Source: a virus. Taken from it: a stretch of DNA of 22,321 nt. The stretch lies in IMG/VR virus record IMGVR_UViG_3300021197_001309, positions 1 through 22,321 of that record, one strand, 5' to 3'. The position numbers and the translations under genes are program-made. Below the pieces are notes generated by a model. The model saw only the letters and a program-made list of their open reading frames with translations. It searched no databases and was not told the DNA's origin. This document shows, piece by piece, positions 5,350 through 21,590 of the stretch. Position 1 is the stretch's first letter. Every line of letters begins with the position of its first letter.

Positions 5350-6195
5350 ATGTTAGGAACTAGACATAATGGTTGGAGTGGTGTTGCTAAAGCAGTCAGT
5401 ATAGGTGTAAGGCATAATGGGTGGAGTGGTACTGGCTTAATTGGTGCGGTATCAACCTTAGATGATGGCTCGGGTGGAGGGAGTGGGTCTGCACCCTTTA
5501 ATCTCTTCAACAAACCTGTTATTAGTGGAGTATACCCCGTAGCACAAGTATGGACACACCCTAGCTTAACCATACCTCAGCATTTCAAGGTTACAGCTAG
5601 AATACTAGTAGATGGTAATAGTAATCAGGGCATCTTTGGTCAAGGGTATGAGACAGGTGGGTCAGTACAAGGTTCTCTAGAGTTCTCTGTACGAAAAAAT
5701 GCAGCTACGGACGAGTTATCTTTCAGGTTTGACTGTACTGATGGTACTTGGGGTAACAGGTCTACTTTGAATTATACTGTAGATAATCCAAATGCTGTCA
5801 TAGATACCTCCATTGAAATAGATCAGGTAAACAACCTAATCACTTTAATAGTGGACGGAGTAGAATCCACAACACCACTGGTTGCACCAATAATGCAAGA
5901 TGCAGATCCGTTTGTCATAGGCGGGGTAGCAGATGGGGGTGATTACCAACTCCACATGACATCTGCTATGATCTACGATTTTATGTTAGAAGACTTCAGT
6001 GCGGGTACAACTCCTATACTACTTGACATGGTAACCCAAACTGGTAATATAGCTAATACAGGGGATTCTGGCACAGCTAACTTAACAAAAGTTAACAGTA
6101 CTACCAGAACAGAGAACGTAATATATACCCCCGCAAGTAACACTGTGAGGTTAGACTTAGATACAACATTCGAAGATTATGGTGTGCACGTATAG
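5350..6195 (+). CDS. LamG/ConA-like lectin virion protein (281 aa)
   Basis: The N-terminus carries two copies of RHNGWSG (residues 5-11 and 21-27) separated by nine residues, then a Gly/Ser linker (about 41-49). Residues about 74-220 look like a LamG-type jelly roll: FKVTARILVDG, SLEFSVRKNAATDELSFRF, SIEIDQVNNLITLIVDGVES, and the end AMIYDFMLEDFS. Such folds bind glycans, so host surface or environmental sugar is the likely target. The last 60 residues form a further strand-rich part. A strong AGGAGG precedes the ATG. The N-terminal duplication may be the docking point on the virion or on the product of 4967-5341. Location in the particle cannot be told from sequence. Confidence 0.7.
   Translation: MLGTRHNGWSGVAKAVSIGVRHNGWSGTGLIGAVSTLDDGSGGGSGSAPFNLFNKPVISGVYPVAQVWTHPSLTIPQHFKVTARILVDGNSNQGIFGQGYETGGSVQGSLEFSVRKNAATDELSFRFDCTDGTWGNRSTLNYTVDNPNAVIDTSIEIDQVNNLITLIVDGVESTTPLVAPIMQDADPFVIGGVADGGDYQLHMTSAMIYDFMLEDFSAGTTPILLDMVTQTGNIANTGDSGTANLTKVNSTTRTENVIYTPASNTVRLDLDTTFEDYGVHV
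5362..5430 (+). repeat. Two direct 21-base repeats encoding RHNGWSG
   Basis: Copies at 5362-5382 and 5410-5430 differ at two bases (A/G and T/G), 48 bases apart and in frame. They encode the paired RHNGWSG motifs at the start of the LamG-like protein. Confidence 0.8.
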
Positions 6196-7712: not shown

Positions 7713-8351
7713 ATGAGAGAAATTACAGGTTTTGGTGATGCAGGAGAGAAATTAGTTCAGTTCGCAGCGGAAGGTGAATATACCAAGAAATTCGGACTAG
7801 TTGATGGTGACGGAGATATCATAATACAGGATATGATACCCTGTGTAGCTAATGCTCATCCAAATGACGGTAACGAATGTATTTATATTAGAGACCTAGA
7901 GGAAAGTATAGAGTTACATGAGTGGGCTAAAGCTACAGGTCTTACCTACATCCCTGCATACTTCCACGAATTTGATAAGTGTCCAGATGAAGTATTATTA
8001 TGTTTCGGACTCATGGATGAAGAAGAGAATAAGACCCTTGTAGCCCAAAACCTAGATGAAGTTATAGAGGATAAAACACACCCTGTAGAGAAATTAACAG
8101 TAGAGTCTGAAGCCAAAAGAGAATCTCTTAAAGAAGGTAAAAGTTTCGGTGATAAGTTAATGGAAATGGTACATGAGAGAGGAACTGTCACTTATAGATT
8201 AGGTACTGTAGAGTCCGAGATTAAACGGATGGAAGAAGAATTCCAAGAGAAGATGCAAGATCTAACTACAGAGAAAATAGCAGTGCTAGAAGTGATCGAC
8301 ACTTACGATAAAGCTATTAGAATCTTCTTCGAGGAGAAAGGTAATGCCTAA
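7713..8351 (+). CDS. Acidic coiled-coil protein upstream of the oxygenase (212 aa)
   Basis: The N-terminal part (1-115) is mixed and acidic (FGLVDGDGDIIIQDMIP, NECIYIRDLEESIELHEWAK), perhaps a small globular domain. The C-terminal part (about 118-210) is strongly helical with heptad-like charge: KLTVESEAKRESLKEG, then TVESEIKRMEEEFQEKMQDL, then LEVIDTYDKAIRIFFEEK. This predicts a coiled-coil dimer or oligomer. Its stop overlaps the oxygenase start by eight bases (ATGCCTAA), which implies translational coupling, so it may be a partner or substrate of the oxygenase. No family recognised and no signal or membrane segment. Confidence 0.75.
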   Translation: MREITGFGDAGEKLVQFAAEGEYTKKFGLVDGDGDIIIQDMIPCVANAHPNDGNECIYIRDLEESIELHEWAKATGLTYIPAYFHEFDKCPDEVLLCFGLMDEEENKTLVAQNLDEVIEDKTHPVEKLTVESEAKRESLKEGKSFGDKLMEMVHERGTVTYRLGTVESEIKRMEEEFQEKMQDLTTEKIAVLEVIDTYDKAIRIFFEEKGNA

Positions 8352-9072
8352 CCTAGAAAATAAAACACGTAACGGTGCTATCAGCATATACCACGAGTGT
8401 TTACCTCCAGAACTTGCTAAAAGAGCTTACGAGCTTTTTGAAGAACACAGAGAAGCAGGTATGAGTTGCTTAGGTAGTTCTTTTGGTGGTGTTAACACCG
8501 ATGTGAAAGATAGTTCTGATATGACACCAATTACACAATTACCTAGAGACCACGAATTTTACAAAGTATCGGATGAGATAGAGATGCACGTGTTTCGTTG
8601 CTTAGTGGATTACTATAAAGATAATAAAGGTTTACTGTTAGGGTACTTCAAAGGTACAAACTTAGGAGATTATAATTCAGTAGAAGATATAGAAACTATT
8701 ATTGCTAGGGTTTTTAGATTAGAGCATGGACAGTATCAACACTATAAGAAAGTAGAAGGTGAGAGGAAGAGAGGAGGAGGTTACCCTGCAAACCACGCAG
8801 AGTGTTGTGTACAGAGACATGCAGACCCTGCGGAGTATCTATATAGAAGATTAACTTGGATGTTAACGCTTAATGAGTTACCTGTAACCAAAGAGCAATA
8901 CGGCTATACTGTGTTTACAAATCAGAAAATAGCTGTAAGACCTAAAGCAGGTCAACTGGTGTTATTCTCCCCTTGGATGGATTGTGAGCACAGAGGTAAT
9001 AGAGTTGACGATGTTGAGAAAAGTATCATAACTGCTTGGGTAAGTGACCATTGCCCACCTAAGCCAGAGTAA
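8344..9072 (+). CDS. 2OG-Fe(II) oxygenase, prolyl 4-hydroxylase-like (242 aa)
   Basis: The fold's hallmarks are present: RVFRLEHGQYQHYKK (about 122-136), the iron ligands H159 and D161 in RHADP, then RRLTWMLTLNE (168-178), the strand pair GYTVF...IAVRPKAGQLVLFSP (187-210), the third ligand H216 in CEHRG, and K226 in EKSIITAW for the 2-oxoglutarate carboxylate. Such enzymes use O2 and 2-oxoglutarate to hydroxylate proteins, bases or small molecules. The target is unknown; virion fibres or the coiled-coil protein encoded just upstream are candidates. The ATG overlaps the previous stop, with GAGG upstream, and a strong terminator starts two bases after the stop. It is the second gene of a plus-strand cassette facing fibre genes on both sides. 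Confidence 0.85.
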   Translation: MPNLENKTRNGAISIYHECLPPELAKRAYELFEEHREAGMSCLGSSFGGVNTDVKDSSDMTPITQLPRDHEFYKVSDEIEMHVFRCLVDYYKDNKGLLLGYFKGTNLGDYNSVEDIETIIARVFRLEHGQYQHYKKVEGERKRGGGYPANHAECCVQRHADPAEYLYRRLTWMLTLNELPVTKEQYGYTVFTNQKIAVRPKAGQLVLFSPWMDCEHRGNRVDDVEKSIITAWVSDHCPPKPE

Positions 9073-9073
9073 T

Positions 9074-9099
9074 AGGAGACCTTCGGGTCTCCTTTTTAT
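9074..9099. terminator. Strong terminator after the oxygenase gene
   Basis: AGGAGACC and GGTCTCCT pair perfectly around a TTCG tetraloop, followed by TTTTT on the plus strand. On the minus strand it lies just after the stop at 9109 but has only a weak U-tract, so it may end both convergent units. Confidence 0.9.
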
Positions 9100-9108
9100 T
9101 ACCTAAAA

Positions 9109-9732
9109 CTAATTTACAATACCATGACCTAGGAACATGATAGGGTGTAGTATCACACTATCAGGTCTAGTTTCATCATCCCAGAAGTCGTTAGTTATGT
9201 TATGGTTGTGATCACCTCCTCCAGTAGTACTAGCGGTTGTGAAGCTACTACCAAACGTATGACCGTGATTACCTCCTGAAGTACTACTGCCCGTAATCAG
9301 TGAACCTGTAGTTCCGTGACTACTGTACCACCTATTGTTAGAACTATTATTCATCCTATTAGGTTGATTATAAGTAGAGTAGGAGTAGTAGGATACATTA
9401 GCACTATAAGAGTTACTTGTTCTGTTGTGATTGTGAGCTGAGTTACCATTACCCGTGTTATTGCTATTTACTGCGGTAATGTTAAAACCATGCTTGTGAT
9501 TACCCGTAGTATCTACATGAGATATATTAGCGATAGAGGTCCTGTGATTATTCCTAATACCATCCCAGTCCCCACTCTTAAGGTAAGAGTCCGTAAGATC
9601 AGGTAATACTACAACACCGTACAAAGTAGAGGTTACACTCCGGCCATCACAATACCAATACCCGTCAGGGAGATCATTCATATCACCATGATACCATTCA
9701 ACAGTATTCAGATTACTATATTCAAAAATCAT
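9109..9732 (-). CDS. Tail-collar-like HxH protein, copy 3 (207 aa)
   Basis: The N-terminus matches phage tail collar domains: GYWYCDG (24-30), then VVLPDLTDSYLKSG (41-54). The rest is Asn/Ser/Thr/Gly-rich with four HxH motifs at H79/H81, H100/H102, H156/H158 and H175/H177. In T4 gp12 and gp37, HxH motifs from three chains bind metal ions that hold the fibre together, so a trimeric metal-pinned fibre or spike is inferred. The protein ends with SVILHPIMFLGHGIVN, the position of the usual collar-domain end strand. It is last of three tandem paralogues, starting two bases after the previous stop. It is the most diverged copy, with an Asn/Tyr-rich stretch at 107-137. Confidence 0.8.
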   Translation of the reverse strand: MIFEYSNLNTVEWYHGDMNDLPDGYWYCDGRSVTSTLYGVVVLPDLTDSYLKSGDWDGIRNNHRTSIANISHVDTTGNHKHGFNITAVNSNNTGNGNSAHNHNRTSNSYSANVSYYSYSTYNQPNRMNNSSNNRWYSSHGTTGSLITGSSTSGGNHGHTFGSSFTTASTTGGGDHNHNITNDFWDDETRPDSVILHPIMFLGHGIVN

Positions 9733-9734
9733 TA

Positions 9735-10313
9735 TTAAACCCCTACATAAGTTATGTACCTAACTTGAACATTGTTAGGTTCTGTAACAGCATCACCTCC
9801 AGAGACATCATGCGAGTGTGTTGCGTTACTAGAATTACCTGCATTGTAACCAGTGATATTGTGAGAATGTGTCCCTGTATTACTCATAGTTCCTGAAGCA
9901 TTCACCGTCACAGTTCTTGATGTCGTACTGTTACTAATATTAGCAAAGATAAAATTAGCAGAGTTATTAAGGCCCTTATTGATTACACTATGTGTATAAG
10001 TACGTGCCGTAGTGTTAGCAGTATTGTGACTATGGTTACCACTAGCACTTACATTGAAATTCCCAGAAGGGGTATGTGTATGAGATTCTGTAGAGGTACC
10101 ACCTAGATTACTGACAGGTGTTGCAGTAGACATACCGCCAATATCACCTACTGCGGAAGCAGAGTCTTGCTTTAAATAGTGTCCATCAGGTATGTTGACA
10201 GTAGTGACACCGTTATATGTATTCCCATCACAAAGTGCGTACCCTATAGGTATAGTGTCATTACTGACATACATTATAATACTACCTACCATCTCCTCTT
10301 GTATTCTAAACAT
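9735..10313 (-). CDS. Tail-collar-like HxH protein, copy 2 (192 aa)
   Basis: Begins with a collar-type sequence, GYALCDG (24-30) then VNIPDGHYLKQ (39-49), like W..CDG and PDLRGRF in tail collar domains. Four HxH motifs lie at H78/H80, H94/H96, H149/H151 and H166/H168, with spacing close to that of its two neighbours. Between the second and third motifs is a Thr/Ser/Asn-rich section (97-145). It ends NVQVRYITYVGV. The ATG overlaps the stop of the upstream paralogue by eight bases (ATGTTTAG), implying coupled translation and matched amounts of the two proteins. It is probably a virion fibre or baseplate-tip subunit stabilised by Fe or Zn; the metal and location are inference. Confidence 0.8.
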   Translation of the reverse strand: MFRIQEEMVGSIIMYVSNDTIPIGYALCDGNTYNGVTTVNIPDGHYLKQDSASAVGDIGGMSTATPVSNLGGTSTESHTHTPSGNFNVSASGNHSHNTANTTARTYTHSVINKGLNNSANFIFANISNSTTSRTVTVNASGTMSNTGTHSHNITGYNAGNSSNATHSHDVSGGDAVTEPNNVQVRYITYVGV

Positions 10314-10941
10314 TTAATACCTCTTCGATATAAACTATATGATTAACAATAACATGATCAGGTTGAGTCACTGTTGCATCACTTACCATCGAACTGGCCT
10401 GATGAGAGTGTGTGGTTGATGCTATATTACTACGGAAAAGCATAGTATGACTATGGTTATGAGAGTTAACATGTAGAGGTACAGATACCCCTCGGTCTCT
10501 AGAGCCACCACCTGTACCATTAGCGTCATTACTATACCTATCGCTACCACTACCACCATCAGCATTACCACCCCGCATATTGACCTTCATGTAAGGTATA
10601 GCTATAGTAAAACCTGTATGAGTATGAGCACCTGCACTACTGGTATTAGCTGAAGCATTAGTCTCATTACCGTGACTATGCTCACCACCACTCAATATTA
10701 CAGGGTTATCTGGAGCACCTGTAGCTTGACTCAATGTAGTACCTGTTATATCTGTAGATAAAGTAGAGGCTCTTATATACCGACCTTGTATATCAGGTTT
10801 AGTGTATGTACCTACCGTAGTCCCATCAGCAAGATGCCAATGAGTCCCTACGAGGGTAGCAAGATCACCTGTGAAAGGTCTTACTATCCCCGTTGCAGCA
10901 GGTTTCAAGACCTGCTGACTCCCCGCATTTGGAAAAAACAT
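10306..10941 (-). CDS. Tail-collar-like HxH protein, copy 1 (211 aa)
   Basis: First of three tandem collar-like genes. The collar signature is present but altered: HWHLADG (34-40) where copies 2 and 3 have ALCDG or WYCDG, then KPDIQGRYIRAST (48-60), the classic PDLRGRFIRG motif. HxH motifs lie at H88/H90, H106/H108, H161/H163 (extended as HNHSH) and H178/H180, plus H34/H36. Residues 119-155 form a Gly/Asp-rich loop (NMRGGNADGGSGSDRY), likely exposed. It ends HVIVNHIVYIEEV. It starts three bases after the stop of the 839-aa fibre-like gene and should be co-transcribed with it. Inferred role: virion fibre or tip subunit held by metal ions. Confidence 0.85.
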   Translation of the reverse strand: MFFPNAGSQQVLKPAATGIVRPFTGDLATLVGTHWHLADGTTVGTYTKPDIQGRYIRASTLSTDITGTTLSQATGAPDNPVILSGGEHSHGNETNASANTSSAGAHTHTGFTIAIPYMKVNMRGGNADGGSGSDRYSNDANGTGGGSRDRGVSVPLHVNSHNHSHTMLFRSNIASTTHSHQASSMVSDATVTQPDHVIVNHIVYIEEVLNV

Positions 10942-10944
10942 ATA

Positions 10945-13464
10945 TTACGGATTCCTTATTAAGTGTAACTGACCATGTTGAACATTTAATGTAAATCTCT
11001 CACCTTCTGTAAGAGAACCTACTTCATTGTCTCGTAAATCTTCCGTACCTATGATTTCCACATCCCAATCTAAATCTGAGAAAGGTACTGGTGTTACAGA
11101 CCCATCAATAGACTTATTGGCACTGTACAAACTACCCATGTATTCCACATAATCACCATGTGAGTATACGAGACTTTGATGATGTGCTAGTGGTGTACTA
11201 TTGTCAGGTACCATCATACGTCTGAGTGTAGGCCAAGCATCCAAATCAGTAGCTGCACCTTCTACGTAAGACCCGTATCTCCAACCAGTGACACCATTAT
11301 CCATGTAATCTCCCTCAGAATAATCATTATCATTCTGGGTAGGAGGAAGTATATCTGTAGATGTATGTACTTTTTGTAAGTTAGGGTTGTACCTATCCCC
11401 TAGTGTAATAGGGTTTTCAGAAATAACATCATAAGAAAACTGCTTACCTGTAGTACTTCCTGCTACATCTACTGTTAGGGTGTCTCCTACTTTCAACTGC
11501 TTGGGGTTGAAATCTACGGCAGAACCTGTACCATTTACAGCAGGAACGTAATTATTGGTTTCGGTTATAATGAATTGTTCTTCGCCTCTTACCCAACCTA
11601 AGAATCCCCACTCCCCTGTACCTCCGTCTGCTGTTTCATCGTAAACGAATCTTTTACCTGATGAAGTTTCTGAAAGATCTCCTGTCGTGAACCAATCATT
11701 ACTTTTAAAAGCGTCTACGTGTATATTAAGTTGGTGGGTACGAGTCCCATACTTACTTCTTCGGTCGATCCACTCGATAGTTCCTCCAACTTCATCTACC
11801 TTAGCTGTATAGAGGACCACTTTATCACTACCTGTACTGGTATTTCTAACCTCTAAAGTGTCATTGTCACTCGCAACAAAGATATCACCTTGCACAGTAC
11901 TAGGTACGTAATTCCCATCTGTTGTCTCAACAACAACTACAGCCTTAGCTCTAAGATTAGGTATTACTTCAAAAGCATCGACATTAGAAGCTTGGTCTTC
12001 TACATATTTAAACAAGTCACCTAGGTTATTACGTATAATCTCACCCTCATAGTAGACTAAATCATCTCGTGTAGGGATAATATCGGTGTTTGCAAATGAT
12101 ACTCTTGTAGGGTGACCATGTACGTAATTAGCACCCCAAGTAATATTCTTATTATCATAATCTATTACACAACCTTCGTTATAGTGTTTCGTTTTAACAT
12201 TAGGTGTGTAAGTTGATACATAAGTGTCCCCATCTACAACCATTGTACCGTTAATATACGGGTAGTCGGTAGCGTAAGCTATTATAGCTGTGTCAGTACT
12301 TAGGTAGTTATGTTCTACACTACAGCGTAACACAGAGAATAGAGGCCAAGCAGAAGCGTCATCTACTGCACCAAACACATAATTATGCAGTCTTGGTGTA
12401 TTACCCTCTTTGGTCAGTATGATATCCCCGTTCTTATAGATATTATCATCTTTTGTAGGGGTAACCCAACTCCCATCATTAGCTTGTGCTAATTTAATAC
12501 CTTCAGCTTTTAATACGGTCTGACCACCAAATAATACACCTAGATCAGTAGTAGGTACAGGGGCTGCTTCATTATACTCATAGTACATAACACCTAGGTT
12601 CAGGTCGAATACAATATCATCTTGTAAATATTTCTTAGCGTTCTGTACAGGAGCTAAAGTTTCGTTCCATACTTTAGGTTTTCTCCAATTACGTTTAACA
12701 TCTGTTTGAATACCATCCGTACCTAACTTAGTTAAGTAAGCTAGTTCAAAATCACCCGCAGTCGTAGGTATACTCTCATCAAACTCAAACCAATAACCCT
12801 CATGACCTTCATCACCCTCAAGTAACAATCTAACATTATCACCGTGTATAGGTCTACGTATACGATACTTGTCTTCATCACTTACATCAACATCAGCTAG
12901 GTAACCTGCTAAGTATTGGATAGGATTATCATAACCGAGAGCATCAGTACCTTGCATTGTGAATGTGGTAGGTGCTCTAAATGTTTGGTAACCTTCAAAG
13001 TTATCGAAATCAAAGTGGAAACCTAGTACAGCAGAGTAACCACCAAACAAGATATTGTACTTACGGTTAAGATAGTAATCCCCTTCAAATATAGAGTCGT
13101 GTAAGAAGTTGGTTGTCCTGTCATCTAGGTTTAAAGCAGGGTCAAAATCATCAGCAGTTAATACACGTAGACCGTTAAGTTTAGATTCATTAACCCATGC
13201 ACTGTTAGTAGGGTTACGTTTGAATATGAACTCACCCTCTGTAGTCCGTTGTAAGAATAAATCATTTGCATGATAGGCAGGGACTGTGATATCTTCTGGA
13301 GTCTCTGTAGGTGCTATATCTGAGGTGAAAAGACTAGCCCCACGGAATTCAGAAACTGGGACTCTGAATAGTGAGAAATTGGTAGGGTCAGTTACTACAA
13401 CCTGATGCCCATTAACTACGTTCTTATTGGCTTCTAAAGCCAAACTGGATACCTTACGAGGCAT
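10945..13464 (-). CDS. Large repeat-containing fibre-like virion protein (839 aa)
   Basis: First gene of a four-gene unit with the three collar-like proteins. Three repeat units share the pattern P-T-x-x-D-x-x-Y-x-x-G-[DE], at about 335-380 (TPTKDDNIYKNGDI), 463-505 (IPTRDDLVYYEGEI) and 705-750 (PPTQNDNDYSEGDY); the first and third end in a DxxAWP segment. Near the C-terminus (about 762-800) VYSHGDYVEYMGSLYSA followed by a Trp resembles CBM5/12-type chitin-binding modules, which fits glycan binding. No membrane segment. AAAGGAT precedes the ATG, and an extended -10 lies 38 bases upstream. Likely a long fibre or spike that carries the collar proteins; the assignment rests on composition, repeats and context. 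Confidence 0.75.
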   Translation of the reverse strand: MPRKVSSLALEANKNVVNGHQVVVTDPTNFSLFRVPVSEFRGASLFTSDIAPTETPEDITVPAYHANDLFLQRTTEGEFIFKRNPTNSAWVNESKLNGLRVLTADDFDPALNLDDRTTNFLHDSIFEGDYYLNRKYNILFGGYSAVLGFHFDFDNFEGYQTFRAPTTFTMQGTDALGYDNPIQYLAGYLADVDVSDEDKYRIRRPIHGDNVRLLLEGDEGHEGYWFEFDESIPTTAGDFELAYLTKLGTDGIQTDVKRNWRKPKVWNETLAPVQNAKKYLQDDIVFDLNLGVMYYEYNEAAPVPTTDLGVLFGGQTVLKAEGIKLAQANDGSWVTPTKDDNIYKNGDIILTKEGNTPRLHNYVFGAVDDASAWPLFSVLRCSVEHNYLSTDTAIIAYATDYPYINGTMVVDGDTYVSTYTPNVKTKHYNEGCVIDYDNKNITWGANYVHGHPTRVSFANTDIIPTRDDLVYYEGEIIRNNLGDLFKYVEDQASNVDAFEVIPNLRAKAVVVVETTDGNYVPSTVQGDIFVASDNDTLEVRNTSTGSDKVVLYTAKVDEVGGTIEWIDRRSKYGTRTHQLNIHVDAFKSNDWFTTGDLSETSSGKRFVYDETADGGTGEWGFLGWVRGEEQFIITETNNYVPAVNGTGSAVDFNPKQLKVGDTLTVDVAGSTTGKQFSYDVISENPITLGDRYNPNLQKVHTSTDILPPTQNDNDYSEGDYMDNGVTGWRYGSYVEGAATDLDAWPTLRRMMVPDNSTPLAHHQSLVYSHGDYVEYMGSLYSANKSIDGSVTPVPFSDLDWDVEIIGTEDLRDNEVGSLTEGERFTLNVQHGQLHLIRNP

Positions 13465-13557: not shown

Positions 13558-16371
13558 CTATCGTGTATCAACAGGAGGAGCGGGATCAGCAGGGTATGTG
13601 CCAGATAAGTCACCACCATCAACTACAGTAGAAGCTAGATTAACATTATAAGGTGTAGCCCTATAACTATATCTACCGTCCCTTCTCGTACTGAATTTAT
13701 AATGTATAGATGCATTGTGTGGTACATTTATGTCTATCCTAGTATCCAAACCACGACCATGTGTAGCTATGTAGATAGTCAGTTGTCCCGTACAACCTTG
13801 AGGCCAATCCTCTCCGAAAGCAAAAGAAACATCGAAATTCTTAACCTGATCATAAGGGATGTGTACGACCAAAGGATTCACTGTGAAGGTATTAGCTGTA
13901 GCCGTTTCGACACCTTGTACCAGTAAAGGCTCATAGTAAGCTTCCTGACCTGATGTGAATATCCATTGATGTTCATCTGTATCACCATAGAGAGCTTCTA
14001 GATCACTCCAGAACAACACCTCACCATCTTCATCAGTAAGCCACATATCACTAGGGACTTCATGTAGAGTAGGCCAATTGTGCTCTGTAGCATAAGCCCA
14101 TTCTTGCTCACCTTGGATCTCATCTACACGTTCTTCAAGGTCATCACCTGTAACAATAGGGCTTTCTACAACTTGAACAACTTGTGCCTTAATACTAGGA
14201 ACAAAAGCACCATTATCGTAATAACCATAAACCTTTACAGGTTCTTGGAAGTGGTAGGTTATTCGTCTAGGAGTGGCACGATTAACAGTGAAAGATTTCC
14301 TTGGTAACCTAAGTCTCTCGTACACAGGACTATCTGGATTAAGAGTAGGTTCTATCTTGTAATTGGCATCATATTGTTTATCTAAGAACTTGTACTTATT
14401 CATGTTCTCTTGTAATTCTTCTGAACCCTGTAGGGTAGAAGAGATCACAGTACGGTAAGATATGGGATCAGGTCCATCATACCTAATCAAAGGGAATAGG
14501 TTCTCTACATTCACAACATCCCAATGAGCAGTGTTTAATTCGGACTCAAATACCGAGTCTAAACTCAAGCTCAGGCTACTCATCTCTACTACAGAGGTAG
14601 GTACAATACCTGAATTAAGTCTATTTATGTCACCTTCAGTCCAGAACTCCTTTCTTGTAGAATCATCTTGGAAGAGTATGTGCAGACCACCCTTACCAGA
14701 GGCTAGGTATGTTTTATCGTTGTAATTACCTAAGACCGCTTCATTAGATTTTGTGTGTTCTGCGGGTGCAGCTAGTTGTGTATACTGTAAGTTATTCTCT
14801 ATAGGATACCATACACCAACCCCGTTATCTATTACAGTATTAGAGTTCTTCCATATCTGATCACGGAAATTTGATTCATCTAGTATATTAACATAACTAA
14901 GATATTCTACTTCTGCTTTCTGTCTAGGTACAAACTGATTCTTTATAGTACCTGAAACTTCATCAAAATAACTGTAGGTACCACCAGATAACTTAACCCT
15001 ATGACCATTAGCTATAGTCAGTCTTGTAATAGTCTTTGCAAACCTAATATCTTTATATTTAGGGTTTATATCGTAAAGATTAAAACCTGTTGTAAGATTG
15101 AAAGAACCATTAATACCCGCATTAAGTCCTGCAACAGATATGTTTTCCCACTGAAGATTACCATCAAAATCTTCAACAGATACCCGTACAGGTGCACCAT
15201 TGATGTTGTCTGTTGTTTCCAGTGTATCAAAAGCTAAAGTATTAAATCTTATATGTGTTGTATCAGTATTATAGTTAATATTACTGACCCAAGATATTTC
15301 TGTGAAACTTCCTGCTTCTGGATTATCTGTGTGGTCAAGAACTATGTCTTCATCAAACAAAGGCCTGTTGTCTATAGTAGATTCACTTAATACTGTATCA
15401 GCCCTTTGAACCTCCGTACCTTTCTTAGTCTCTAGTACTGTCTGATGTTCTGAGTTACCGAAGTTAAAGTCTTGGTTCTCACCAGATACTGTGAACAACT
15501 CTCTAAGTTCAGGATTACCATCTTCATCTAAAGAGTTAGTTGTAAGATCAACACTGATACCGTGTGGTTGTGTTAATACCAATCCATCCGTAGCCGCACT
15601 ACCACCTATCTTGAACTTAGTACTCCAATCAAAGACACCATCACTTACTTCATCATAACGCTCAAAATGTAAGTGAGCAGAATCCTCAGCAGTGATCCTC
15701 CACCTAGAGTCTTCATCCTCTAAGGTAATAGTGTTACCAGAAGAACCACCTGCACCACCTGTCTGACCATTATAGAAAAACCCACAAAGGTAGATGTCTG
15801 TACTGGGGAAACTTGCACTTGGTGGGGCATCTGCATCCGATATAAGTAACATACCTACCGCAGGGTTCCAGAAGTGTGAAACCCAATTACCATCATTACC
15901 TACCGCAGTAGATATCATATTACCATTACTAGGTGGTCCTGAGAAGATAATAGGAGAATACGCAGCAGATGGAAAACCATTAGCTCTTGGTACTAACTGA
16001 GGTTGTATCCAGTTACGCTGTACACCATCAGCAGGGGTGTTATAGGTATTGAATGCTACGTAAGATTTATTATTTGTACCTGCTACAGGTGTTAATCTAA
16101 TAGCCGTAGCATCATTGAAAGTACCATCATCATTGATACCGTATCTTCCAATTATATTGCTATTTGCTACAGCATGACTTACAGCTTGTGCAAAGTTATT
16201 AGCAGGTAGTGCTTTAAGGGAATTCATCTCAGACCAGATACTACTAGGGTCTACTATGAAGCTATTAGGTTGTAACTTCTCGTACCAAGAGGTATTATCA
16301 TTACTATCAATGGTTCCGGCTGCTAAAACCGACCCTGCAAGCTTGATAATCTCATCATTAGAAAAGGCCAT
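13558..16371 (-). CDS. Large virion structural protein (937 aa)
   Basis: A long, acidic, strand-rich protein without membrane segments. The N-terminus (1-60) is helical, with LAGSVLAAGTI and WYEKLQPNSFIVDPSSIWSE, the kind of opening seen in large marine-phage structural proteins that attach to the particle. A Gly-rich hinge (GGAGGSSGNT) is near residue 210, after which runs of strands alternate with loops. The last quarter includes an acidic helical section (DDLEERVDEIQGEQEWAYAT) and a strand-rich end (DVSFAFGEDWPQGCTGQLTI). The ribosome site AGAGG lies in the end of the tiny gene 16374-16523, whose stop is two bases away, so translation is coupled. Probably a fibre, spike or head appendage; I cannot name a family. 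Confidence 0.75.
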   Translation of the reverse strand: MAFSNDEIIKLAGSVLAAGTIDSNDNTSWYEKLQPNSFIVDPSSIWSEMNSLKALPANNFAQAVSHAVANSNIIGRYGINDDGTFNDATAIRLTPVAGTNNKSYVAFNTYNTPADGVQRNWIQPQLVPRANGFPSAAYSPIIFSGPPSNGNMISTAVGNDGNWVSHFWNPAVGMLLISDADAPPSASFPSTDIYLCGFFYNGQTGGAGGSSGNTITLEDEDSRWRITAEDSAHLHFERYDEVSDGVFDWSTKFKIGGSAATDGLVLTQPHGISVDLTTNSLDEDGNPELRELFTVSGENQDFNFGNSEHQTVLETKKGTEVQRADTVLSESTIDNRPLFDEDIVLDHTDNPEAGSFTEISWVSNINYNTDTTHIRFNTLAFDTLETTDNINGAPVRVSVEDFDGNLQWENISVAGLNAGINGSFNLTTGFNLYDINPKYKDIRFAKTITRLTIANGHRVKLSGGTYSYFDEVSGTIKNQFVPRQKAEVEYLSYVNILDESNFRDQIWKNSNTVIDNGVGVWYPIENNLQYTQLAAPAEHTKSNEAVLGNYNDKTYLASGKGGLHILFQDDSTRKEFWTEGDINRLNSGIVPTSVVEMSSLSLSLDSVFESELNTAHWDVVNVENLFPLIRYDGPDPISYRTVISSTLQGSEELQENMNKYKFLDKQYDANYKIEPTLNPDSPVYERLRLPRKSFTVNRATPRRITYHFQEPVKVYGYYDNGAFVPSIKAQVVQVVESPIVTGDDLEERVDEIQGEQEWAYATEHNWPTLHEVPSDMWLTDEDGEVLFWSDLEALYGDTDEHQWIFTSGQEAYYEPLLVQGVETATANTFTVNPLVVHIPYDQVKNFDVSFAFGEDWPQGCTGQLTIYIATHGRGLDTRIDINVPHNASIHYKFSTRRDGRYSYRATPYNVNLASTVVDGGDLSGTYPADPAPPVDTR

Positions 16372-16534: not shown

Positions 16535-18385
16535 TTAGAATGAAGCAGTTACCTGATCAATTATTACATTATTGGATATCTCAAACCTAACCAATACCCC
16601 ACGTTCTACATTAGCACCACCGAAAGTACAGGTTATAGTGTTACCTACTATATTAACCTGACAACCACTAGTAGCAGCAGACTGGGTAGTCCCGTCATCA
16701 AACGAAGCGAAGTTGTAAGTATCGTGAACCCAAATAGAATTAACTTTACTTAGTTCAGGGTTAGCAGGATCAAAAGCAGGTGGTATATTAAGGTTAGGTG
16801 ATGTCGGTGCCGAAGAACCTAACTTCCAAAGATATATCTTAAGGTCACCACTATTAAGATCAAAAGCAACTCCGTCCCTAGTTACAATATTGAAGGTCAT
16901 GCTACCGTAACTTGTGGTCGGGTTAGCAGCTAAGAACTCTCTGAAGAATACAGCACTGTTTGTTAGTCCACTATAATCTGGTTGTACTCTTGCATTGTTC
17001 GCAGCATCTTCATTAGGTGTATATGTAGAAAGATTATTACTACTACCTATAGCACCATCTACATTCTCATCAATGTCGAATATACTGGTTGGTCTCATAA
17101 GAGCACCACCGAATACAGCAGCCTCTCCATTTACAAGAAAGTCTTGACTATTCCAAGCGGTAGTGTAATCTCCTTGTAACCGCCTAGACTCACCATTGAA
17201 TGTTTCAATTAGATTAGTAGAGTCATCTAAGAAGGTATCTACACAAGTGGTTACGGTACTTGAGTTGAAAGGACTACTCATCTGCCAAGAATCTCTTACA
17301 CGGATACTCGCAGTAGAATCACCTATATGCCTGAAGTTAGCTCTGTTAATAACAACCCTACTCTCATCTGGGGAGTATAACATATCGTTATCGAAGCGAT
17401 CCTTAGTGGCAGTTTCTACGAAGATAAAGTCTTGGTCATGTGTCCAAGGCGATACATTGTAATCAGCTACACCCGTACCGTGAGTTTCGATAAGTAAACT
17501 TTCTGTCGGTCTACTAGAGTCTCTATTGTGTTCATGTATAACACCCGTAGCAACTTCCCACTGAGAACCAGTAGTAAAGTAACTGATACCTGAGATATGT
17601 TTCAATACTGTATTCACTTGGTAATCTACAGGCTCAACCATACTGAAAGCAAGACCACCTTGGATATCATTAGTGATAGTTACAGCAGGGTTAGCTACAT
17701 CGTCTAAGAAGAACTCTTCCGTGAAAGTCCTTATGGTAAAGTCGAAGTCTGTATGAGTAAATGTAACTCTGAAACTACCAGAAGTATGACCATTACCTGC
17801 ATCCAGTAATAAACCTGCTAAACCAACTTCCATACGAACAGTAGCTGCATTCCTACTACCATCACCATCAGGTGCTGTATTAGCTACCCTGAAGTTAACT
17901 CTACCTTGTGTTTGTATTGAATCACCTGCACTAGAGAACGTGTGGTCAAAGTAGTTAGCACCTAAGTCTATACCTGTAACTTGTATACGCATAGAGGAAG
18001 TACCACCAAAACCAGTACATTGACCTGATTGCCATGAGATAGTACCAAGTTGTGTAGCTTTCTTTGTTGTACCTACCCAGTTCTCGTTTAATCCTGCTAG
18101 GAAATTACCTGTTGGTTCTCCTACCCTAACGTCAGTATTAGCTCTATCCGTAACACCGAACGGAAAGGGCGGGAGGAAGTTAGGTGGGACACCTAATATG
18201 ACACAACTAGGATCATCTGCATCTGTATACGCTGTAAAACCTAAACCATCACCTACTACTATTCTAGCAGCTTGTGGAGACACTTCGTTAGATATATCAC
18301 AGTCAGTATTATTCACTGCTACTGCTCCGCCACCTGAACCACCTCTACCCGATGGGATACCCGAGCCACGACTCTTTATACTCAT
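16535..18385 (-). CDS. Large virion structural protein with Gly-rich N-terminus (616 aa)
   Basis: First gene of a three-gene minus-strand unit with its own promoter at 18412-18420. The first 22 residues are basic and Gly/Ser-rich (SRGSGIPSGRGGSGGG), probably a flexible attachment arm. The remainder is rich in Thr, Ser, Asn and Asp and strand-forming (SMRIQVTGIDLGANYFDHTF, then NAATVRMEVGLAGLLLD, then RVTFTHTDFDFTIRTF). A Pro-rich stretch, VPPNFLPPFPFGV, is at about 65-77. The C-terminal 80 residues (ATSGCQVNIVGNTITCTFGG and onward) look like a separate beta domain. AGAGAGG precedes the ATG. Probably a fibre or head-surface protein; no family can be named. Confidence 0.75.
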   Translation of the reverse strand: MSIKSRGSGIPSGRGGSGGGAVAVNNTDCDISNEVSPQAARIVVGDGLGFTAYTDADDPSCVILGVPPNFLPPFPFGVTDRANTDVRVGEPTGNFLAGLNENWVGTTKKATQLGTISWQSGQCTGFGGTSSMRIQVTGIDLGANYFDHTFSSAGDSIQTQGRVNFRVANTAPDGDGSRNAATVRMEVGLAGLLLDAGNGHTSGSFRVTFTHTDFDFTIRTFTEEFFLDDVANPAVTITNDIQGGLAFSMVEPVDYQVNTVLKHISGISYFTTGSQWEVATGVIHEHNRDSSRPTESLLIETHGTGVADYNVSPWTHDQDFIFVETATKDRFDNDMLYSPDESRVVINRANFRHIGDSTASIRVRDSWQMSSPFNSSTVTTCVDTFLDDSTNLIETFNGESRRLQGDYTTAWNSQDFLVNGEAAVFGGALMRPTSIFDIDENVDGAIGSSNNLSTYTPNEDAANNARVQPDYSGLTNSAVFFREFLAANPTTSYGSMTFNIVTRDGVAFDLNSGDLKIYLWKLGSSAPTSPNLNIPPAFDPANPELSKVNSIWVHDTYNFASFDDGTTQSAATSGCQVNIVGNTITCTFGGANVERGVLVRFEISNNVIIDQVTASF

Positions 18386-18523: not shown

Positions 18524-18627
18524 GTGAGTAGTTTATAAAAGATAAAAGCCAAATATGGCGTTTACGTAGAAATCAAGAACGTATGAAAGAAATTAAAGAT
18601 AAATTAAAATTGGAGAATAACAAATGA
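18524..18627 (+). pseudogene. Possible frameshifted small basic ORF before KilA-N
   Basis: AAGGAG is followed five bases later by GTG, but that frame stops after four codons (TAA at 18536). In the -1 frame the sequence is open from 18532 to a TGA at 18625-18627 and encodes a basic helix (IWRLRRNQERMKEIKDKLKL). Its stop overlaps the KilA-N start as ATGA. Either a one-base change broke the gene, or translation shifts frame here, or only the 14-codon frame from ATG 18583 is used. Upstream coding signals and the ATGA junction support a real former gene. Confidence 0.35.
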
Positions 18628-18890
18628 TTAAATTGAAATTGAATAGTAAAGATATAGAAGTAAGAGAGCAAGACGGAAAGTATTGTTTAAACGATATATA
18701 CAAAGCTTCTGGTTATGGACGTAGTAAAGAACCTAGTAAATTCTTTGTAACTAAGCGAGGACAAGAAATCTTGTCATCGGTATCTTACATTAATATTAAA
18801 GGGGTTAAGGAGGCTTGGACAGATAAACTTTCCGTTTATAAATACGCATCTTGGGTAGATAGTCTAGTTTCAGAAGACCCCGAAGACTAA
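18624..18890 (+). CDS. Minimal KilA-N domain protein (88 aa)
   Basis: The whole protein is about one KilA-N domain, a DNA-binding module common in phage and large DNA virus regulators. The signature is seen in order: YCLNDIYKASGYGRSKEPSKF (20-40), a helical TKRGQEILSS (44-52), an IKGVKEAWTD section (58-67) and YKYASWVDSL (72-81). Most KilA-N proteins carry a C-terminal partner domain such as ANT; this one ends at the acidic tail SEDPED. A role in transcription control or DNA binding is therefore inferred. GGAG precedes the ATG. It sits alone on the plus strand between two minus-strand virion genes, with a candidate promoter upstream and a hairpin just after its end. Confidence 0.85.
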   Translation: MIKLKLNSKDIEVREQDGKYCLNDIYKASGYGRSKEPSKFFVTKRGQEILSSVSYINIKGVKEAWTDKLSVYKYASWVDSLVSEDPED

Positions 18891-20561: not shown

Positions 20562-21590
20562 CTATACGGTGAACGTGTAGTGTGCAATTAATTCTGGACG
20601 AGTTACAACAGCTAATACTGAAGTCTCAGACTCTGCTTTAATCTGACGTAACTTCTCATCAATGTATAAGTAAGCTTCTTGGATAGCTTCCTCTTGACCA
20701 TTAACAGTATTACGAGGACCGAAACGCATCTCGAATAAACCCATGCCCATAGGGAATGCATAACCTTGTGCAGTTGGGATTTCACCAGAAATATCTTCGA
20801 TGAATGTAACACCCTGCCACGATAAGATACGTGAGTTAGATAAACCACCTAAACGCTTACGAGCAGGTTCAACTTCTGAAGCATAATTAGCGTAAGCTTC
20901 TACATAATCAGCATGGTCTTTAAGTGCAGAGAATGCACCAGAACCCATCAACATTACGATTTCGTAGTTATCACCTTCATCACCTGCTGTAGCTACAACA
21001 TGTTGACGGAACAATTCAAACTCATTTGCAGGGTTTGAAGTTTGGTCAGTTAAATCATAAGTCTTAGCACCACCCGCAGCACCATTGAACATGTCAGCAT
21101 TAGCAACACCCCAAACAGCTTGATAGTTACGAGCTAAGTTAGGACGAGCAACACCTGCTGCATCTGGAGCAAAACCACTACCTTTAAGTGCAGTGTACAT
21201 TGCTTTCTTGATAGTACGTGCATGACCACGTTGGAAACGAGCAATAAACTCAGCTACTTTACCTGCAACTGATTCCCATTCCTGAGTACCAAATTTACGT
21301 AAGTTAAGTAATTCAGTTTGCTTGATACCTTTATCTAATGTGAAGAAAGGTAATTCAAGGTGTGCATCTTGAGCACCGTTATCACCCGCTGTTTGACGAT
21401 CAGCATCACGAGCAACAGAGTACATATCATCTGTACCGTCAATACGGCGTTCAAATGTTGCTACTGTAGAACCTGAAGTGTCTTTATTGAAAACACCCAT
21501 CTTCTCTAGCATATTATCTTCACGATCAACTAAAGTCATTAGTTGAGAGAAGTCCTGTAAGTGTTGATCACCTGATTGAATAGTTGGCAT
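20562..21590 (-). CDS. Major capsid protein, lambda gpE-like (342 aa)
   Basis: The protein is the length of lambda gpE (341 aa), with similar order: an N-terminal arm, a mid-N region with FERRIDGTDDMYSVARDADR (about 47-66), then LELPFFTLDKGIKQTELLNL and RKFG (78-102), in the position of the gpE strand and helix. The C-terminus has FPMGMGLFEMRFGPRNTVNG, YLYIDEKLRQIKAESETSVL and a final RPELIAHYTFTV strand, as in the Phage_cap_E family. It would build the icosahedral shell. It follows the decoration gene by 28 bases with AGGAT before the ATG and is closed by a strong terminator, matching a highly expressed head gene. Family placement is by pattern, with good context support. Confidence 0.85.
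   Translation of the reverse strand: MPTIQSGDQHLQDFSQLMTLVDREDNMLEKMGVFNKDTSGSTVATFERRIDGTDDMYSVARDADRQTAGDNGAQDAHLELPFFTLDKGIKQTELLNLRKFGTQEWESVAGKVAEFIARFQRGHARTIKKAMYTALKGSGFAPDAAGVARPNLARNYQAVWGVANADMFNGAAGGAKTYDLTDQTSNPANEFELFRQHVVATAGDEGDNYEIVMLMGSGAFSALKDHADYVEAYANYASEVEPARKRLGGLSNSRILSWQGVTFIEDISGEIPTAQGYAFPMGMGLFEMRFGPRNTVNGQEEAIQEAYLYIDEKLRQIKAESETSVLAVVTRPELIAHYTFTV

Follow-up and report, generated by a model that had tools for sequence, protein, structure and literature searches.

Three tandem paralogues with four HxH motifs each

When three adjacent genes of a tailed phage encode paralogous fibre-tip proteins, do their products make one tip of three chains or three tips? We addressed this question at positions 9109-10941 of the window, the whole 22.3-kb virus record analysed here, which belongs to a marine Vibrio-type phage. 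A preliminary description had recognised three adjacent collar-like paralogues with four HxH motifs each at this locus, and the open reading frames, lengths and motif spacings proved to be exactly as quoted. All three genes lie on the minus strand. The first, C1 (211 aa, 10306-10941), encodes a collar, HSH88, HTH106, a tip, HNHSH161-165, HSH178 and the C-terminal strand TQPDHVIVNHIVYI; the second, C2 (192 aa, 9735-10313), encodes a collar, HTH78, HSH94, a tip, HSH149, HSH166 and the strand TEPNNVQVRYITYVG; and the third, C3 (207 aa, 9109-9732), encodes a collar, HKH79, HNH100, a tip, HGH156, HNH175 and the strand WDDETRPDSVILHPIMFLG. The HxH motifs start at residues 88/106/161/178 in C1, 78/94/149/166 in C2 and 79/100/156/175 in C3, with spacings of 18/55/17, 16/55/17 and 21/56/19, respectively. 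C1 carries two extras, HWH34 and the doubling of its third motif (HNHSH, 161/163). Compared with composition-preserving shuffles, the motifs were enriched in all three chains (0 of 5000 shuffles for C1, then P = 0.0008 and 0.0044; all three P <= 0.005), and the other window genes checked contained at most one HxH each. The chains are also mutually related, with Smith-Waterman z-scores of 6.5-10 between pairs.

The genes are tightly packed. The stop of C1 and the start of C2 overlap by 8 nt (10306-10313, ATGTTTAG), with a Shine-Dalgarno-like GAGG inside the end of C1 as ribosome-binding site, in line with the earlier claim that translation of these two genes is coupled. C2 and C3 are separated by 2 nt (9733-9734), with AGGGG just upstream, and each of the three genes has a purine-rich ribosome-binding site.

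The chains resemble a shortened T4 gp37 tip

For the comparisons that follow, triplets were assigned to two types: the C-type comprises the window and contig L002 (C) together with the 140-kb contig L017 (D; 219, 205 and 203 aa), and the S-type comprises Shewanella phages 1/4 and 1/40 (S), Vibrio phage VCPH (V) and the ackermannvirus GR28A (E). The label "collar-like" was correct, although its family match was weak: of the window chains only C2 matched PF07484 (Phage tail collar), at 16.9 bits against a cut-off of 24, C1 and C3 had no match in this search, and D1 scored 13 bits. The Pfam gathering score was not reached, and C1-C3 are not formal members of this family. A profile built from the nine C-type chains matched three of 177,635 PDB sequences, all modestly: 6ov6 (1.8e-5), the Pseudomonas phage tail fibre 9nxk (4e-4) and the T4 gp37 tip 2xgf (0.0079). 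At the level of sequence profiles, the C-type chains are related to solved collar-needle tips of the gp37/gp12 type. Single-sequence phmmer searches of the PDB with C1, C2 or D2 returned nothing significant. A profile of 15 C, S and V chains returned only unrelated PDB proteins because C- and S-type chains align poorly, and it was not usable.

Across the nine C-type chains, the invariant columns were M1, the eight HxH histidines, and a threonine and a proline near the C-terminus (T190 and P192). The sequence pattern of two HxH motifs on either side of 55-62 residues was present in all nine, and a C-terminal motif, (E/T)xP..V...I, occurred in every chain. The heads between the inner motifs differed among the three proteins, at 21-31% identity to the first row of the nine-row alignment. 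This layout has a counterpart in the T4 gp37 tip (PDB 2xgf, residues 785-1026), in which a collar is followed by descending HxH motifs (883, 915 and 929), a head, ascending HxH motifs (966, 980, 989 and 998) and a C-terminal strand that closes the collar; gp37 aligned with C1-C3 at Smith-Waterman z-scores of 4.4-7.3. Judged by sequence, each C chain resembles a shortened version of this tip, with an N-terminal collar, two HxH motifs, a tip of ~55 aa, two further HxH motifs and a closing C-terminal strand, and C1-C3 match a short form of it that has neither shaft nor anchor. T4 gp37 differs in being one long chain that forms a homotrimer with seven HxH motifs, whereas the window has three short stand-alone chains with four each, and its head between the inner motifs measures 37 residues compared with 55 in the window chains. 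Since gp37 has seven HxH motifs in a like order, four per chain are ordinary, and the earlier view that four such layers are unusual had to be given up; the two-arm layout is the same, and HxH-rich fibres occur in other marine phages (PMC11705849).

Structure prediction gave a partial picture. The AlphaFold2 monomer of C2, made from 6 sequences, had a mean pLDDT of 30. The monomer of D2, made from 9 sequences, was confident only at the collar (residues 12-51) and the C-terminal strand (195-205), where pLDDT was mostly 70-90, and its needle and head lacked confident structure. The confident parts would fit the two parts that form the gp37 collar, namely residues 811-860 and 1016-1026 (PMC12724248). 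An unmodelled needle and head would be expected when the monomer of an intertwined trimer is predicted, although this is not proof of one. A Foldseek search with the D2 model, of which only the collar and strand were confident, gave no match below 1e-3.

Other fibres share parts of this architecture. Within the phage collection, D2 had its nearest detectable relatives in the single-copy tail fibres of Vibrio phages KIT05_14, V07 and 1.262.O, which have the same collar, C-terminal strand and HxH motifs but are encoded by one gene, carry an N-terminal anchor region before the collar and are presumably homotrimeric. The fibre of the marine Alteromonas phage R22Y likewise has several HxH motifs per chain, for which iron binding has been proposed (PMC11705849); it differs in being a single gene with a homotrimer model and with its HxH motifs in the N-terminal half. 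Taken together, these comparisons support the view that C1-C3 are paralogous collar/HxH fibre-tip units in tandem and are related to the tip of T4 gp37.

The slot behind the ~840-aa protein holds one gene or exactly three

The triplet lies downstream of a conserved module on the same strand. Immediately upstream is an 839-aa fibre protein (10945-13464, minus strand), the conserved anchor of the slot, preceded by a 937-aa protein (13558-16371, minus strand; phrog_33494) that is conserved in all relatives and a 616-aa protein (16535-18385, minus strand; phrog_31482). The gene for the latter served to find relatives and retrieved 13 records, 111-158 kb in length, that comprise Vibrio, Shewanella and Pseudoalteromonas phages. 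The window also encodes a major capsid protein E (20562-21590), and a short KilA-N domain gene (88 aa, 18624-18890, plus strand) sits on the opposite strand between the 616-aa gene and a 308-aa gene of the structural module.

Downstream of the conserved 937-aa and ~840-aa genes, the slot contained one gene in some genomes and exactly three tandem collar genes in the others. C-type triplets were found in two related contigs besides the window, L002 (84, 78 and 83% identical to the window's) and L017, and S-type triplets in the Shewanella phages, VCPH and GR28A. Intact sets consisted of three genes in all 7 triplet-bearing phages or contigs found. The S-type genes examined are all annotated "hypothetical protein". 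Single fibre genes replace the triplet in other relatives (L004 20338-21525; L009 21214-22557; L010 20302-21486; L007 20744-23743). The one fibre gene of phages 501E54-1 and HNL01 has its match to tail fibre families in an S74-like intramolecular chaperone region; a single gene of similar length in K354 is annotated as a tail fiber protein, RYC has one 999-aa gene, and 1.121.O has a 277-aa gene without HxH. Whole tip types are exchanged at this slot. The ~840-aa fibre protein also differs by tip type in its last ~90 residues, which probably form its docking part because they change with the tip. In the C-terminal part of the C-type 839-aa protein we also noted a GSLY.A...G..PVPF...DWD stretch with a weak CBM_5_12 match (E = 0.72), which was absent from the other types aligned.

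Several candidates were not counted as triplets. Vibrio phage YC, a close relative of GR28A, retains a remnant of the C-terminal part of the third gene (61% identity over 82 aa; L034 4552-6997, corresponding to 139551-141996) and has other short open reading frames in place of the triplet. Five weak viral-contig matches (L022-L026) were ordinary single collar fibres. A search of genome contigs with the C3 alignment found no relative.

The genes beside the triplet also vary. On the opposite strand, a 2OG-Fe(II) oxygenase gene (242 aa, PF13640) and a 212-aa gene of unknown function occupy 7713-9072 (plus strand). By tblastn, both were present in L017 (17298-18643), and L002, a record that stops at this point, has the oxygenase; neither was found by tblastn in the fetched regions of the other relatives, and the two genes may belong to the C-type cassette. 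A strong hairpin with a T tract for the plus strand (9074-9093) lies between the oxygenase gene and the convergent C3 and is probably their shared terminator. Further away, a 281-aa protein (5350-6195, plus strand) begins with two RHNGWSG repeats; L017 and Vibrio phage 1.121.O share its first ~30 residues at 67-89% identity, and the remainder has no match, as if a conserved leader had been joined to different bodies.

Genes of the triplets group by position across phages

Position-specific relationships were clearest among the S-type triplets. In tblastn searches of 50,697 phage records, the first gene of GR28A (E1) retrieved first genes only, the second gene of Shewanella phage 1/4 (S2) retrieved second genes only, and the best and reported places for the third gene of VCPH (V3) were third genes. 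When gene position was mapped as a label on a tree of the 12 S-type chains, it required two changes, the fewest possible, a value that none of 200 shuffles matched. Lineage-specific triplication was rejected for S (p-AU 0.006), V (0.043) and E (0.024) as well as for C (0.013) and D (0.010), these values being uncorrected for the number of tests, and is therefore disfavoured by the sequences of both types. First genes of the S-type were not recovered as one clade on this tree, on which V1 was unstable; holding them together gave a p-AU of 0.38, and V1 was as close to S3 as to S1 by z-score.

Among C-type chains, C1 paired best with D1 (z = 16.9 vs 10.2 and 10.7 for D2 and D3) and C2 with D2 (18.1 vs 12.3 and 7.0 for the other D chains). 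In contrast, C3 scored lower with D3 (7.4) than with D2 (12.8), although a WDxETRP motif is common to C3 and D3 only, and positional clades for the second and third C-type genes were neither shown nor rejected. The sequences accordingly support grouping by position across viruses for the S-type as a whole and for the first C-type position, and do so weakly for the third C-type position. Between types, the chains are barely alike (z below 4), and C-type chains score higher with gp37 (z = 4.4-7.3). One triplication common to both types, with gene positions retained, was not favoured, since a clade of the first genes of both types was rejected (p-AU 0.0096). Two separate triplications in one slot appear to be the simpler reading, with certainty limited by long branches throughout. 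The paralogues are real, as first described, and the triplication is an old event common to other phages rather than a local one.

Four further features are signs that the chains work side by side. All junctions within the triplets are tight, ranging from an 8-nt overlap to a 3-nt gap, and relative to L002 all three window genes are under purifying selection (dN/dS = 0.16, 0.10 and 0.08). Histidine arrangement depends on position: in S, V and E, first genes have HxH then HxxxH and second and third genes HxH then HxH, and the doubled third HxH is found in C-type first genes only. Finally, the inner HxH motifs lie 55/55/56 residues apart in the window and 62/60/62 apart in L017, so that in this one comparison head length agrees within a phage and shifts between phages. 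In several S-type first and second tip genes, the last codons (encoding, for example, MRIY or TRVY) hold the GAGG of the next gene (L005 20285-21016; L006 22245-22995; L033 11475-12320), and C-terminal sequence and coupling may constrain each other in these genes.

A heterotrimeric tip as the best reading

The domain layout, the conservation of HxH motifs, the position-specific orthology and the exchange of one gene for three in the slot can all be read directly from the genomes. Our best reading, to which we assign a probability of roughly 0.6, is that the three genes encode one heterotrimeric (1:1:1), metal-pinned receptor-binding tip. We favour it because a published virophage triplet forms a 1:1:1 heterotrimer: in virophage DSLV2, three consecutive gp37-tip-like collar proteins co-purify as a ~55 kDa complex of this composition, and its tail proteins have similar lengths and cluster by position across viruses (PMC12724248). 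The likeness to the window, namely three consecutive paralogous collar genes with position-wise grouping, is one of description rather than of sequence. The virophage differs in having a double jelly-roll capsid with the tip on a capsomer, whereas the window belongs to a tailed phage in which the tip follows a long fibre protein. A term search of that paper found no mention of HxH or metal. A heteromeric receptor-binding tip of another build is formed by DEV gp54-gp55 on the gp56 homotrimer (PMC12892993).

From these parallels we infer trimerisation, heteromeric composition, metal and receptor binding as follows. Each chain would be a stand-alone, shortened gp37-type tip whose base is closed by the N-terminal collar and the C-terminal strand; two HxH motifs would lie on the descending strand and two on the ascending strand, with the ~55-60 intervening residues as the tip head. 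Around the three-fold axis, the three different chains would each contribute HxH pairs to hold a metal ion, which is iron in T4 gp37, at as many as four levels, and so pin the needle. Equal amounts of the chains would result from the tight packing and translational coupling of their genes, and the heterotrimeric tip would cap the presumably trimeric ~840-aa upstream fibre protein, a role that the product of a single homotrimeric tip gene would have in related phages. Several points count against a heterotrimer: position-specific orthology and coupling would be equally expected of three specialised homotrimers; the third position is the weakest, with C3 nearer overall to D2 than to D3; the first S-type position is not recovered as one clade; and the coordinated head length comes from one comparison.

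We consider it unlikely, though worth weighing, that the genes encode three separate homotrimeric tips or spikes, specialised receptor binders carried together on one virion at different sites. Such an arrangement would agree with the homotrimeric state of the known collar/HxH tips of tailed phages (T4 gp37 and gp12) and with the single-copy collar/HxH fibre genes of Vibrio phages KIT05, V07 and 1.262.O, and three specialised roles could explain the position-specific orthology. However, C1-C3 all lack an anchor or shaft ahead of the collar, a single adjacent upstream fibre protein is at hand as docking partner, head lengths are alike within a phage and unlike between phages, and one gene occupies the slot in other relatives.

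The preliminary description had proposed either a heterotrimer or three alternative tips. The former is a serious option; the latter, in which one of the three would be used per fibre or virion and host range widened by mixing or switching, fits less well because of the position-specific orthology, the matched lengths and the coupling of all three genes, and we regard it as improbable. Tandem variant receptor binders are known in phages generally, and the divergent heads would suit such a role. Variable gene number would then be expected, in contrast with the constant three of intact sets; each gene has a ribosome-binding site of its own, all three are under purifying selection, and recombination sites, for which there was no systematic search, were not noted. 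It is very improbable that one or two of the proteins help in assembly as capping chaperones and are absent from the virion tip itself: fibre genes often precede chaperone genes, as gp37 precedes gp38 in T4, but the collar, the four-HxH layout and all eight histidines are common to all three proteins, and to our knowledge fibre chaperones are unrelated to their clients.

We also advance a wider proposal, tentatively and at slightly less than even odds: obligate heterotrimeric metal-pinned tips would have evolved at least twice in tailed phages (C-type and S-type), in the same slot and with a fixed chain order and chain-specific histidine geometry, so that a fibre with three-fold symmetry would end in an asymmetric receptor-binding tip. 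The literature searched, with most subscription journals outside its scope, yielded no collar/HxH heterotrimer in a tailed phage, and as far as found there, the three-gene tip arrangement is known so far only from the virophage. The fold is known; what is new is that several tailed-phage lineages have conserved it in a three-gene form.

It is generally assumed that phage fibre tips are homotrimers, in which one mutation alters three sites at once. If the heterotrimer is real, a tip whose three chains evolve separately could recognise an asymmetric receptor, or more than one receptor, and would follow a different course of evolution, and the tripartite tail of the virophage would be tied to tailed phages. 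The idea would also give the S-type genes now annotated as hypothetical a likely function, and it is directly testable, since the S-type phages (Shewanella phages 1/4 and 1/40, VCPH and GR28A) have been isolated and their genomes sequenced.
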